Assembly (NCBI RefSeq): GCF_014132355.1 | Contig: NZ_BLZO01000042.1 | Coordinates: 1-64,000 of the forward strand | Origin: Okeania sp. KiyG1 | GTDB taxonomy: Bacteria > Cyanobacteriota > Cyanobacteriia > Cyanobacteriales > Microcoleaceae | Reading direction: 5' to 3' | DNA: 64,000 bases | In this document: positions 22,807 through 63,010 of the stretch, piece after piece | Layout: each line of letters opens with the position of its first letter | Numbering within the stretch: the first letter of the stretch is position 1 | Made by a program: the position numbers and the translations under genes | The notes under the pieces: generated by a model | Told to the model about the DNA's origin: nothing | Database searches by the model: none | What the model saw: the letters and a program-made list of their open reading frames with translations, nothing else

Positions 22807-24225
22807 TTATAGTCCACAAGTATCTACATAAGAGAAGAATAGGCCATTAATCGCAGGATACCCAATATCGTAAGGTAAGTGCCCTCTGTAATGCGTGCCC
22901 AAATCAAAAGTTAATTCGTTGTAGGTCAACTTTTCATCTCCTTTTCTCCATCCTACTTTCTTGTCAAACTCTTCCACTATCTTTGGATTATACTCTTCTG
23001 TTCCATCCAAACTCTGATAAATTTCCTTCTGCACAGAAAAGCCAAATTTACCATCACTATGTTCTACCCAAAGCTGGTCAATTGCGCGGAGAACTGGACA
23101 CGGAATATTTTTAATTGACTGTTCATCGAGCCAATCTTCATCTTTTCTACTACCAGCTTTTACCATAATTTCGCGAGTTTCCTTATCAGCTTCTTTCCAT
23201 TTCTTTTGCTTTAGTAGATTTTCTAGGGTAGAGTACCTTAAATTTTGCTGTTTTTCTGGTGGTAGTTTTAGACTTGGTAAAAAAGGGGACAAAATAGTTA
23301 GCAAAACTACTATACCTAGTATTAAATAACCTACCTGGATTTTAGATAGGGGATTAAACGACTTTGGACTTTCCTGTTTAGGTATTTTGTCTTTATTAGG
23401 TGACTCTGATAAATCTATTTTGCCATCATCATTTATAGGCACTGTTTCTTGTCCTCCTCCACGATACTTCAACTTTGGCGAACGCGCTAACAAAATTGGC
23501 TCTCCCTCCATAATTGCAAAAAATTGAGGAGTCATTGTCGGAGATTCTAGCGATACATTTTGACTCGCATATTGATGCAATTCACTAACTGAAATTTTAC
23601 CGTCACCATCGATATCTGCTTCCCCAGTTTTAATCCCTTTGACTATATATTTTGTATAAATAGATAATTCCGAACTTTCCGACTCAAAAGAACTTTGAGT
23701 AGAACTAGAAGACATTAAAATCGCCCTACCTTCACCTCCTAATTCTGCTTTAATATCTATTATATTTTTATCCCCTTTAGAAGTCATTCCATTAGTAAAT
23801 GCGCCACTATTACAACAATCCAGAATAACAACAATACGTTGAGAGTAACTATCACTCATTTCATCTTGTAAGAAATTAGCCGCAACAGCAGTCCGTTTAC
23901 TAAATTCGCTCTGTTTTTTGGCAGTGTCAGGAGTCGCTAAATATAGATGGCCTTTTTTACTTAAAACTCCGTGACCAGAAAAATAAAATAGTAAAATATC
24001 ATCCTTATTACGGTCATCAAATAATTTTTCTATTGCCTCTTCTATATTATTACGATTTATATTATCACCATTGGAGTCGTTCAACACCATAATTTCATCA
24101 AAATATCCCATTTTGGGATTACCTAAAACTTCCTTCATTGCCTCAACATCTTTCAGGGTACTAGGCAAATCTGTAAAGTCTGAGGAGTATTTACTAACTC
24201 CAACTAATAGAGCTATTTTTGCCAT
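22807..24225 (-). CDS. Caspase-family (orthocaspase) protease with EF-hand-like loop, membrane segment and GUN4 domain
   Basis: 472 aa. Residues 1-240 form a caspase/metacaspase (C14) domain with catalytic His85 in FYFSGHG and Cys138 in ILDCCNSG. Bacterial members cleave after Arg/Lys and many act in stress or conflict responses. Residues 204-215 (DIDGDGKISVSE) match a canonical EF-hand calcium loop. A linker leads to one membrane helix (about 298-318, VGYLILGIVVLLTILSPFL). Residues 330-470 form a GUN4 domain (LLKQKKWKEADKETREIM, then WVEHSDGKFGFSVQKEIYQS), the porphyrin-binding fold known from Mg-chelatase regulation. The gene follows the EACC1-like gene by 12 bp, so the two are co-transcribed. 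Inference: tetrapyrrole or light state could gate the protease at the membrane. Both catalytic residues are intact. Confidence 0.9.
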   Translation of the reverse strand: MAKIALLVGVSKYSSDFTDLPSTLKDVEAMKEVLGNPKMGYFDEIMVLNDSNGDNINRNNIEEAIEKLFDDRNKDDILLFYFSGHGVLSKKGHLYLATPDTAKKQSEFSKRTAVAANFLQDEMSDSYSQRIVVILDCCNSGAFTNGMTSKGDKNIIDIKAELGGEGRAILMSSSSTQSSFESESSELSIYTKYIVKGIKTGEADIDGDGKISVSELHQYASQNVSLESPTMTPQFFAIMEGEPILLARSPKLKYRGGGQETVPINDDGKIDLSESPNKDKIPKQESPKSFNPLSKIQVGYLILGIVVLLTILSPFLPSLKLPPEKQQNLRYSTLENLLKQKKWKEADKETREIMVKAGSRKDEDWLDEQSIKNIPCPVLRAIDQLWVEHSDGKFGFSVQKEIYQSLDGTEEYNPKIVEEFDKKVGWRKGDEKLTYNELTFDLGTHYRGHLPYDIGYPAINGLFFSYVDTCGL

Positions 24226-24237
24226 GAAAAAATCTCC

Positions 24238-24636
24238 TTAAGCATTAAAAATTTTTTCTATTGTTGGTTTGACTTTCTCATACTCCTTATCTAATTCTTC
24301 AGCATTACGACCTTCGATGTTCAATTTTATCTCTTTACCGTTTTCTTTAATTTTAATTTCAATATTAATTGTCTTACCATAGAGGCGGTTACTCAAATAT
24401 CCAACCAAAGCTTTGAGATTTTTAGCATTAATTTGTGCGGTAAGAATGCCTAGTAAAAAACCGCCAAGACTTTTAGCCCCAGGTTCAGCGGTTTCTATTG
24501 GTATTAAATCTGGATTTTGTACTCCATTAAACTTTTTTATCTCTGACAAAATATTCCGGGTATCTGTTTGGAGTCTTTCTGGTGTTAATTTTGGATCGGA
24601 TAGAGTAATTGTTAGTTGAATATTTTCTAATGACAT
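24238..24636 (-). CDS. EACC1-like effector-associated protein, 132 aa
   Basis: Starts MSLENIQLTITLSDPKLTPE and shows a beta-strand-rich head, a Gly-rich helical middle (GAKSLGGFLLGILTAQINAK followed by ALVGYLSNRL) and a strand-rich end (INIEIKIKENGKEIKLNIEG). This plan resembles the effector-associated constant component EACC1, described next to caspase- or trypsin-like proteases in bacterial conflict systems. The assignment is by pattern and is not certain. It is the first gene of a two-gene unit with the caspase-GUN4 gene, separated by 12 bp. Likely role: a partner or activator of the downstream protease. No signal peptide. Confidence 0.6.
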   Translation of the reverse strand: MSLENIQLTITLSDPKLTPERLQTDTRNILSEIKKFNGVQNPDLIPIETAEPGAKSLGGFLLGILTAQINAKNLKALVGYLSNRLYGKTINIEIKIKENGKEIKLNIEGRNAEELDKEYEKVKPTIEKIFNA

Positions 24637-28037: not shown

Positions 28038-28523
28038 TTAATCTTCGTCTTCATCTGGCGGTCTAGTAATAACATCAAACAATATTTTTGCTAAATCATT
28101 TTTATTATCAATCTCTTGAACTTCCTCACTTATGGCTTTAGCTTTTTCCAAATCTCCCATCTTGGCAATAATCAATCCCGAAGCAGCATAAGCAGTAATC
28201 AAAAGATTAATTTGTTGCTCTTTTTTGCGACTAGCTAATATAGTTTTTACCTCCTGCCAATCATCCGGTAAATTTTCCCGTTTTTTCACTTCAGCAATTA
28301 CCTTATGTGCTAATTGAAGCGACATTTTCATATTATTTTTATAGAAAAAATAACGATAAGCACCTATCAAAATATCCAGATTTCCATCAGTCTTAGCCAA
28401 AGCTTGATTAATATAATTTTCTGATGTCTCAGTATCCTCCCAATTTTCCACCGCCAACATCAATAAACTTTTGACATCTTCAGGCACATCATACCAGGAA
28501 AACTTATTTTCTTGAGCTTGCAT
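28038..28523 (-). CDS. TPR-like hypothetical protein, 161 aa
   Basis: All-helical, acidic protein: MQAQENKFSWYDVPEDVKSL, then AVENWEDTETSENYINQALA and AKMGDLEKAKAISEEVQEID, which look like two or three tetratricopeptide-type helix pairs. Ends in a very acidic tail, RPPDEDED. I believe it belongs to a conserved family of short cyanobacterial proteins, but cannot name it. No signal peptide. Stands alone with about 270-410 bp spacers on each side. Confidence 0.65.
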   Translation of the reverse strand: MQAQENKFSWYDVPEDVKSLLMLAVENWEDTETSENYINQALAKTDGNLDILIGAYRYFFYKNNMKMSLQLAHKVIAEVKKRENLPDDWQEVKTILASRKKEQQINLLITAYAASGLIIAKMGDLEKAKAISEEVQEIDNKNDLAKILFDVITRPPDEDED

Positions 28524-61468: not shown

Positions 61469-63010
61469 ATGAGTTATTGCGTTAATCCTCAATGTCCCAA
61501 TCCTGAAAATCCCGACACAGCAACCTATTGCCAGAATTGCCACTCCCCTTTAATTCTTCAGGGACGCTATCGTCTCCTGAAAAAAGTTGGTCAAGGAGGC
61601 TTTGGCAAAACATTTCTGGGCGTAGATGAACAACATCCTCTGAAGCTCCCATGTATTCTGAAGCAAATATCATTTTCCACCCTCGACCCCGAAAGCCATC
61701 ACACAACAACTAGACTATTTCGGCGGGAGGTAATGCGGTTAGGGCAGTTGGGACAACATCCACAAATTCCTCTGCTTTTAGCCCATTTTCAATATAATCA
61801 AAATTTGTATTTGGTACAGGAATATATTCAAGGTTTGACATTAAAGCAAGAATTACAACAAGGTCTCTTCAACGAAGAACAAATATGGCAACTTTTGCGA
61901 GAGTTACTACCAGTATTGAAGTTTATTCATCAACGTCAAATTATTCACCGAGATATTAAACCAGAAAATATTATTCGTCGTACTTCCCCACCTATTAATT
62001 ATCAAAAACCACCCTACTTACCAGGAGAAAATCAAGTAGTGGAAAAATCAGAAAAAATGGGAGAATTTGTATTAATTGATTTTGGGGTAGCGAAGTTGCT
62101 GACAGGTACAGCTTTAATTAGTACTGGTACCGTTATTGGCAGTCCCGAATATATGGCACCGGAGCAAACCAGAGGGAAAGCACTGCCAGCAAGTGACTTG
62201 TTTAGTTTGGGTGTAACTTGCATTCATTTACTGACAGATGTTGCGCCGTGGGATATGTTTGACGTTGTTAATGACTGTTGGAGATGGCGAGATTTTTTGC
62301 CGAGTGGGAGTAGTGTTAGTCAAGGTCTCGGCAATATATTAGATAAGTTGTTAGAAAATTCTGTGAGTCAACGCTATCAGACAGCGGAACAAGTTTTGGA
62401 GGTGTTGGAGTCTAGGTCAAGTATTGTTAGGCAACCTGTGGAAAGTATAGAGTCTTTGGCGTTGGTAAATCAAAAGTTGTCTGTGTTGCCATCGGTGCGG
62501 AGTTTGGTGGGGAGGTTTATTCCCCAAGTTTTGACACTGGATGAAAATGAGTTAATTTCGGCAGTGGGGGTAGAGTATGGAAAATTGCAGTATTTATTGG
62601 CAGTGCAAAAGTGGCGGGAAGCTGATATAGAAACATGGGCAGTTTTATGTGATGCTTTGGGGAAGAGGAGAAAAAGTTATTTGTTTCAGAATGATATAGA
62701 TAATTTGCCTTGTGAAGATTTGCTGACTATCGATCGCCTTTGGGTGAAGTACAGTCAGGGGAGGTTTGGGTTTAGGGTGCAAAAACAGATTTATGAAAGT
62801 GTGGATGAAGATTATGGAAAATTTTGTAGTCAGGTTGGTTGGTTAACTTATAATTTGCATTTTCGCGATCGCGGATATAAGTTTACCAGTTGGGCACCAG
62901 TTGGTCATTTACCTTCAAGAATTTGGGCAGGTGGTCAGCAGTGGTGGACTCATGCAGAAGTGATGGCGAAAAAGTTAGATAAGTGTGGTTTTTCAACAAT
63001 TAATAATTAA
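61469..63010 (+). CDS. Ser/Thr protein kinase with N-terminal zinc ribbon and C-terminal GUN4 domain
   Basis: 513 aa. Start ATG 61469. N-terminal four-Cys ribbon (CVNPQCPNP...CQNCHSPL, residues 4-27) typical of cyanobacterial Hanks kinases. Kinase (about 32-320): GQGGFGKTFLGVD, the ATP Lys in CILKQI (Lys65), HRDIKPEN (Asp162), IDFGVAKL (about 203-206) and GSPEYMAPEQ, so it is catalytically complete. C-terminal GUN4 domain (about 360-510): YLLAVQKWREADIETWAVLC, LLTIDRLWVKYSQGRFGFRV, then WTHAEVMAKKLDKCGF. GUN4 binds protoporphyrin-type tetrapyrroles; fused to a kinase it could link tetrapyrrole state to phosphorylation (inference). Cytosolic, monocistronic. Confidence 0.93.
   Translation: MSYCVNPQCPNPENPDTATYCQNCHSPLILQGRYRLLKKVGQGGFGKTFLGVDEQHPLKLPCILKQISFSTLDPESHHTTTRLFRREVMRLGQLGQHPQIPLLLAHFQYNQNLYLVQEYIQGLTLKQELQQGLFNEEQIWQLLRELLPVLKFIHQRQIIHRDIKPENIIRRTSPPINYQKPPYLPGENQVVEKSEKMGEFVLIDFGVAKLLTGTALISTGTVIGSPEYMAPEQTRGKALPASDLFSLGVTCIHLLTDVAPWDMFDVVNDCWRWRDFLPSGSSVSQGLGNILDKLLENSVSQRYQTAEQVLEVLESRSSIVRQPVESIESLALVNQKLSVLPSVRSLVGRFIPQVLTLDENELISAVGVEYGKLQYLLAVQKWREADIETWAVLCDALGKRRKSYLFQNDIDNLPCEDLLTIDRLWVKYSQGRFGFRVQKQIYESVDEDYGKFCSQVGWLTYNLHFRDRGYKFTSWAPVGHLPSRIWAGGQQWWTHAEVMAKKLDKCGFSTINN

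Follow-up and report, generated by a model that had tools for sequence, protein, structure and literature searches.

A bacterial two-gene conflict system in which a small EACC1 protein accompanies a caspase with swappable C-terminal domains was described as "System 4" by Kaur et al. in 2020 (PMC7159879). According to that account, the pair is prevalent in actinobacteria and sporadic in proteobacteria, EACC1 carries a single conserved membrane helix whose center is made of small residues, and up to 50 alternative C-terminal domains occur, which were read as effectors (PMC7159879). The same authors suggested that fused GUN4 senses tetrapyrroles; the available text of their paper mentions GUN4 in another context and not together with EACC1. 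Fusions of caspase and GUN4 were catalogued in 2010 by Jiang et al. (PMC2853523) and appear in a further account (PMC7475262), and 29 GUN4-bearing orthocaspases, with caspase p20 fused to GUN4, have been tabulated (PMC8283722). Orthocaspases generally cleave after basic residues (PMC6426788). In canonical Gun4, the magnesium chelatase cofactor, the sequence that follows the GHLP site is the LxNxLR bilin motif (PMC10156173).

The pair analyzed here lies in a 64,000-nucleotide stretch of DNA from Okeania sp. KiyG1 (the window, meaning the whole of that stretch), and we consider it a divergent cyanobacterial variant of the system of Kaur et al. rather than a new kind of system. As in the published system (PMC7159879), a 5' EACC1-family small gene appears to stand directly ahead of a caspase gene with variable C-terminal modules, part of the members are associated with the membrane, and the hosts are multicellular bacteria. 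The two differ in that the relatives of the present pair are cyanobacterial and widespread (an alignment of small-protein relatives, A1, matched in 138 of the 388 genomes of the class) instead of actinobacterial or proteobacterial, in that GUN4 serves as a module, and in that some relatives of the cyanobacterial small protein form fusions with TIR, CHAT or Roc-COR domains. The preliminary description of this locus knew of no account of its parts as a unit; that claim does not stand, since the EACC1-caspase pair and the caspase-GUN4 fusions are both in print (PMC7159879, PMC2853523). Among open-license full texts (main text as opposed to figures and supplements), we found none that places EACC1 and GUN4 in one locus, and the published treatments of the fusions (PMC2853523, PMC8283722), as far as their accessible text goes, speak neither of an upstream partner nor of the EACC1 type nor of LxNxLR loss. 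What would be new in detail is a putatively soluble, adaptor-like branch of EACC1 and a GUN4 module that lacks the known bilin motif.

Both open reading frames (ORFs) of the window pair are intact, and they lie on the same strand with the following features:

24238..24636, minus strand: small gene, first of the pair, 132 codons, encoding a putative divergent EACC1-family protein (ORF)
24226..24237, minus strand: 12-bp intergenic gap, TAAGGAGATTTTTTCATG (sequence)
22807..24225, minus strand: long gene, 472 codons, encoding caspase, EF-hand loop, predicted membrane helix and GUN4 (ORF, Pfam, NF047832)
23527..24219, minus strand: caspase (Peptidase_C14) domain, residues 3-233 (Pfam, NF047832)
23971-23973, minus strand: catalytic His85 (motif, alignment A4)
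23812-23814, minus strand: catalytic Cys138 (motif, alignment A4)
23581..23616, minus strand: EF-hand-type calcium loop, residues 204-215, DIDGDGKISVSE (sequence pattern)
23269..23334, minus strand: predicted membrane helix, about residues 298-319 (hydropathy)
22870..23253, minus strand: GUN4 module, non-canonical, residues 325-452 (PF05419)
22810..22872, minus strand: variable C-terminal tail after GHLP, residues 452-472, last letters YVDTCGL, replacing the canonical LxNxLR

This is the arrangement that had been proposed from first inspection, a 132-amino-acid gene 12 bp ahead of a caspase/EF-hand/helix/GUN4 fusion, and the ORFs, Pfam matches and hydropathy bear it out. A Shine-Dalgarno-like AAGGAG overlaps the stop codon of the small gene, which suggests coupled translation of the pair, and a gap of 12 is the most frequent length among relatives (13/109 pairs). 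The sequence inspected on either side of the pair showed no obvious defense island; judging from ORFs and Pfam, the neighbors are probably a fumarase-like gene, Uma2 and a methyltransferase. Elsewhere in the window, at positions 28038-28523 (minus strand), next to TPR-like matches, the Pfam model of a CdiA-type RNase A domain scores 22.3 bits (E 2.5e-4), short of its cut-off of 27; this weak match is probably due to chance.

The N-terminal part of the long protein matches Peptidase_C14 over residues 3-233 (E 4.1e-20). On the NCBI curated model NF047832, "caspase, EACC1-associated type", whose cut-off is 140 bits, it reaches 158.2 bits. Each of the 20 rows in alignment A4 (19 caspase-GUN4 relatives plus the window protein; 2 of the 21 GUN4 partners, L164 and L176, were left out) also matched this model at E<=0.001. 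His85 and Cys138, the dyad that had been reported as intact, are where they were said to be and are invariant across these 20 rows. A strict motif scan found SGHG and DxC in 85 of the 100 full-length partner caspases, and those that failed it mostly carry DCCH at the second site. In the genome to which the window belongs, 21 stretches match NF047832 and exactly 3 exceed its cut-off; these are the same 3 loci at which the small-gene search matched. Residues 204-215 follow the canonical EF-hand loop pattern and are matched by Pfam EF-hand models below their own cut-offs. The loop had been proposed as a calcium gate of this protein. It is indeed present, but it also occurs in 84/100 full-length partner caspase domains and hence is a trait of this caspase type rather than a gate special to the window protein. 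From these matches we assign the window caspase to the EACC1-associated type; its His/Cys dyad is intact, and it carries the family-wide EF-hand loop.

Recognition of the small protein depends on its family. It has an EACC1-like layout, and alone it gave no EACC1 match at E<=1 in a Pfam scan. Among its relatives, 5 of the 18 in A1 match PF19953 EACC1 (best E 1e-4), as do 19 of the 76 rows of a larger alignment, A2 (the window protein and 75 of 99 non-redundant sequences), at E<=0.01 (best E 1.4e-5), and EACC1 is the only Pfam family matched by more than one A2 member at that threshold; an NCBIfam scan of A2 found no EACC1 match. We also compared A2 by hhalign with A5, six proteins from Nonomuraea, Streptomyces and Caballeronia chosen by position, each encoded immediately ahead of an EACC1-type caspase (in one case the protein makes up the N-terminal portion of a fused ORF). 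This comparison gave 98.1% (E 8.3e-14, 121 columns), whereas a control alignment of A2 with the caspases reached 0.4%; when four of the A5 proteins were scanned with Pfam, one passed the EACC1 cut-off, two gave sub-cut-off matches and one gave none. The EACC1 likeness assigned to the small protein at the outset is therefore upheld at the level of the family (19/76 and 98.1%) but not as a direct match of the window protein itself, and membership in an unrelated family, which was to have counted against the whole proposal, is contradicted by the same family-level tests and was rejected. A profile search of solved structures returned only weak matches (YajQ, uS3, and tandem ubiquitin at E 3.5e-5, where no individual stretch passed), so that no solved relative was found by sequence.

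The helix described for EACC1 is another matter. The highest 19-residue hydropathy of the window small protein is 1.11, from which no membrane helix is predicted, although a glycine-bearing hydrophobic patch is retained in its sequence, and a value of 1.6 is reached by just 6/110 cyanobacterial small proteins versus 5/6 non-cyanobacterial ones. Compared with the published system (PMC7159879), the window pair thus shares the caspase type, the EACC1 family (at family level), the adjacency of paired genes and the variable C-terminal module, and differs in a divergent small protein without the conserved membrane helix, as judged by hydropathy. We interpret the small protein as a remote, divergent EACC1 homologue that is apparently soluble. 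In cyanobacteria, EACC1-like domains are also found fused to TIR (L144:1962-2891 and L147:5461-6459), to CHAT (L131:5383-6438 and L142:5347-6372) and to Roc-COR (L128:3-2360), and such fusions would agree with an adaptor role.

The pair is widespread but not obligatory. At 109 of 120 sampled places (about 100 of them taken in E-value order with gaps, among the matches listed for A1), the small gene is accompanied by a same-strand caspase ORF located -150 to +600 bases from its stop; the other 11 include the five fusions named above and one contig end. Conversely, among the best 80 of 474 relatives found with the caspase-GUN4 alignment, the small gene lies upstream in 56 loci and does not in 24, so the partner is not essential everywhere. 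The conservation in other genomes on which the original proposal depended is thus found in both directions, and its suggested survey of GUN4-caspase fusions for an upstream partner gives 13 of 17 GUN4-bearing caspase ORFs with a small gene, again among the best 80 of 474 relatives. Distances among small proteins correlate with those among their caspases (r = 0.65, n = 96, with 0 of 1,000 permutations as high) and do so also within 15 same-genome pairs (r = 0.52); shared species history alone could be the source of part of this correlation. In the same genus, where 6 of the 26 rows of the small-gene search (the window's own row plus five that were fragmentary or broken) were left out, several small-gene and caspase copies are split or carry in-frame stops (G001 and other loci, including L070 and L083), which suggests active gain and loss of pairs. 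In the genome to which the window belongs, contig C184 (about 77243-78688, minus strand) also carries a caspase-GUN4 ORF of 503 amino acids; its caspase scores 67.7 bits on NF047832, below the cut-off, and the small-protein search found no small gene near it.

The C-terminal part of these caspases varies. The 109 partners comprise 38 with an FGE-sulfatase/C-lectin module, 20 with GUN4, 1 with both, 4 with a periplasmic-binding domain (one of these assignments rests on a short match), 1 with EAL and 1 with CobW; 34 have no module assignment and 10 are too short. When GUN4 is mapped as a label on a quick tree of 101 caspase rows, 14 changes are required, at least 9 of them forced by starred branches, whereas shuffled labels give a mean of 19.5 and were as low as 14 in 2 of 500 shuffles. 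Modules have thus been exchanged, in a non-random way, while the caspase stayed constant. FGE-type lectin domains are targets of cyanobacterial diversity-generating retroelements (PMC7517822). A predicted membrane helix separates caspase and module in all 4 periplasmic-binding partners (L092, L101, L111 and L156, whose architecture is like that of a receptor-protease), in 1/39 FGE partners and in 2/21 other GUN4 partners.

In the window long protein, one stretch exceeds the usual membrane-helix threshold (Kyte-Doolittle mean of 2.45 over 19 residues from 298). It sits where most GUN4-bearing relatives carry a longer helical linker, most of which is gone from the window copy in A4. The protein had been described as membrane bound; the predicted helix of this copy agrees with that, but with only 2 of the 21 other GUN4-bearing partners sharing such a helix, the window belongs to the few GUN4 forms that have one. 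A topology from the flanking charges (K+R 5 and D+E 3 on the N side, K+R 7 and D+E 2 on the C side) was rejected as ambiguous and, if anything, goes against a simple cytoplasmic-N arrangement. If the helix crosses the membrane once, caspase and GUN4 would lie on opposite sides. Overall, the C-terminal part can be regarded as an interchangeable module, which here is a non-canonical GUN4 apparently tethered by one predicted helix.

The explanation that we favor, with about even confidence, is that the pair is a divergent cyanobacterial two-gene module of the EACC1-caspase type that works as an adaptor-controlled sensor-protease for suicide or defense. The C-terminal module would sense a trigger (an altered tetrapyrrole, a stress ligand or something made by an invader), and the caspase, possibly with calcium at the EF loop, would be released or clustered. 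It would then cut after basic residues, in its own linker, in cell proteins or in both. Acting like a death-domain adaptor, the small protein would hold, cluster or activate the caspase, and the infected or damaged filament cell would enter suicide or dormancy. Reading the modules as sensors is favored by the FGE/C-lectin (38), GUN4 (20) and periplasmic-binding (4) modules among the 109 partners, together with the helix in all four of the last; against it are the enzyme-like EAL and CobW modules (one each), and against the scheme as a whole stand the lack of a direct EACC1 match and the lack of the helix of Kaur et al. in the window small protein, together with the 24 of 80 close caspases that have no small gene upstream and the missing defense island near the pair. 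A phage-resistant Nostoc substrain has three mutations, one of them in a GUN4 and kinase protein (PMC10811720), which is at most a hint.

The reverse polarity, in which the small protein is the sensor or activator, the caspase the switch and GUN4 an effector released by autoproteolysis, is a possibility that we rate as unlikely, even though it follows the published EACC1 proposal with its C-terminal effectors (PMC7159879). Enzyme-like modules do exist in the cyanobacterial set, and the EAL, CobW and 34/109 unassigned modules fit an effector reading equally well. The commonest assigned cyanobacterial modules, on the other hand, are of ligand-binding types (FGE/C-lectin, GUN4 and periplasmic-binding), and the idea of a sensing small protein rests on a membrane segment that the cyanobacterial small protein has lost. 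GUN4 is not known to have catalytic activity, which also counts against an effector role.

That GUN4 binds a porphyrin or bilin, with the caspase killing or remodeling the cell when tetrapyrrole metabolism fails, was the gate envisaged in the preliminary description and, for fused GUN4 as a tetrapyrrole sensor, likewise by Kaur et al. (PMC7159879); we now regard it as improbable. The homology is strong (PF05419, residues 325-452, E 7.1e-36), and like canonical Gun4 (PDB 1y6i, 1z3x; phmmer E 1.5e-9, 2.2e-13) the module has the fold, as judged by sequence, up to GHLP. Beyond that point it differs in its tail, which lacks LxNxLR, and in its fusion to a protease. In the genome-wide search, the profile match of the window module stops at model position 124 of 141, and of the 27 GUN4 matches in that genome, one reaches the model end and looks canonical while the others stop at <=133. 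Across 30 genomes, canonical Gun4 scores 176-227 bits and extends to the model end, other GUN4 matches listed score <=153 bits, and no canonical Gun4 appears in two of the genomes (G072 and G085) among the matches listed. The remaining GUN4 matches of the window's genome fall within larger or other ORFs, the starts of which look, by sequence, like those of kinases, TIR proteins, trypsin-like proteins and zinc-ribbon proteins. The window also holds another GUN4 gene (61469-63010, plus strand), which encodes 513 amino acids with a protein kinase and a GUN4 whose tail is similarly non-canonical.

After GHLP, canonical Gun4 reads QxRG in 20/20 parsed sequences, and NQLRG in 19 (20 of 28 loci were parsed, with L188 of the window's genome among those left out). 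The window reads GHLP-YDIGYPAINGLFFSYVDTCGL, and QxRG or LxNxLR follows GHLP in 0/21 EACC1-type caspase GUN4 modules, the window included, one of which ends four residues past GHLP and is uninformative for the motif. QxRG is likewise found in 0/22 modules of the window's own genome (a GHLP-like site could be parsed in 22 of 25 loci); the window and C150 proteins belong to both sets. In place of the motif stands a tail of variable length, with a median identity of 22% versus 54% for the body (36 close-kin pairs; a comparison of 153 pairs drew on 18 proteins, with L168, L169 and L176 excluded). This tail ends in R/K-x-x-x-C in 13/21 caspase modules and 17/22 own-genome modules, versus 0/20 canonical sequences. 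Two possible sources or affiliations of the tail and module were considered and rejected. A search of the window's own genome (92% complete) with the last 204 bases returned the query itself and two matches, at 78% and 70%, and these lack the template-adenine excess of the kind expected if a retroelement had diversified the tail; no template repeat, nearly identical apart from adenines, was thus found there. Membership in PD-T4-6 (PADLOC) was dismissed as well, since the match is confined to positions 304-426 of the 450 in that model, where its GUN4 portion lies.

For GUN4 paralogues without LxNxLR, loss of bilin binding has been proposed (PMC10156173), so the window module resembles those paralogues; the main text of that paper does not contain the words "caspase," "kinase" or "multidomain," whereas here the motif is missing from EACC1-type caspase modules that have a variable tail. 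In Chlamydomonas, the N219G variant abolishes bilin binding and keeps porphyrin binding (PMC10156173), so that porphyrin binding may survive loss of the motif. Substitutions of Arabidopsis R211, which by our own mapping is the Arg of LxNxLR, weaken porphyrin binding three- to twelvefold (PMC8967248). The window GUN4 is probably not a bilin sensor, and it could be called a porphyrin sensor only with uncertainty. The tetrapyrrole gate is hence weakened, in that the GUN4 homology stands but the motif after GHLP is missing.

A housekeeping role unrelated to death, or a module that is losing parts, is very improbable, for although most of the relatives' helical linker has been lost from the window copy, in-frame stops occur in several same-genus small genes and 24/80 near relatives (best 80 of 474) stand alone, neither ORF of the window pair is broken, the caspase retains its dyad and EF loop, and a good ribosome-binding site is present in the gap.

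Building on the adaptor-controlled sensor-protease, we hypothesize, tentatively and with more doubt than confidence, that in cyanobacteria EACC1 has become a soluble, death-domain-like adaptor that serves caspase, CHAT protease, TIR and Roc-COR GTPase alike, and that GUN4, originally a chaperone of tetrapyrroles, has become a diversified module for recognition, in which the LxNxLR segment that contacts the ligand was replaced by a fast-changing tail with an R-x-x-x-C end. Such a module would be swapped with C-lectin and periplasmic-binding sensors on one caspase scaffold, and in the window protein a (possibly extracytoplasmic) GUN4 receptor would drive the caspase through the membrane helix. 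If this is right, many cyanobacterial orthocaspases, long studied as single genes, would have a co-encoded small partner that activity assays need; GUN4 within a multidomain protein could no longer be presumed to sense chlorophyll precursors; and one shared adaptor domain would link the caspase, CHAT and TIR executioners of bacteria.
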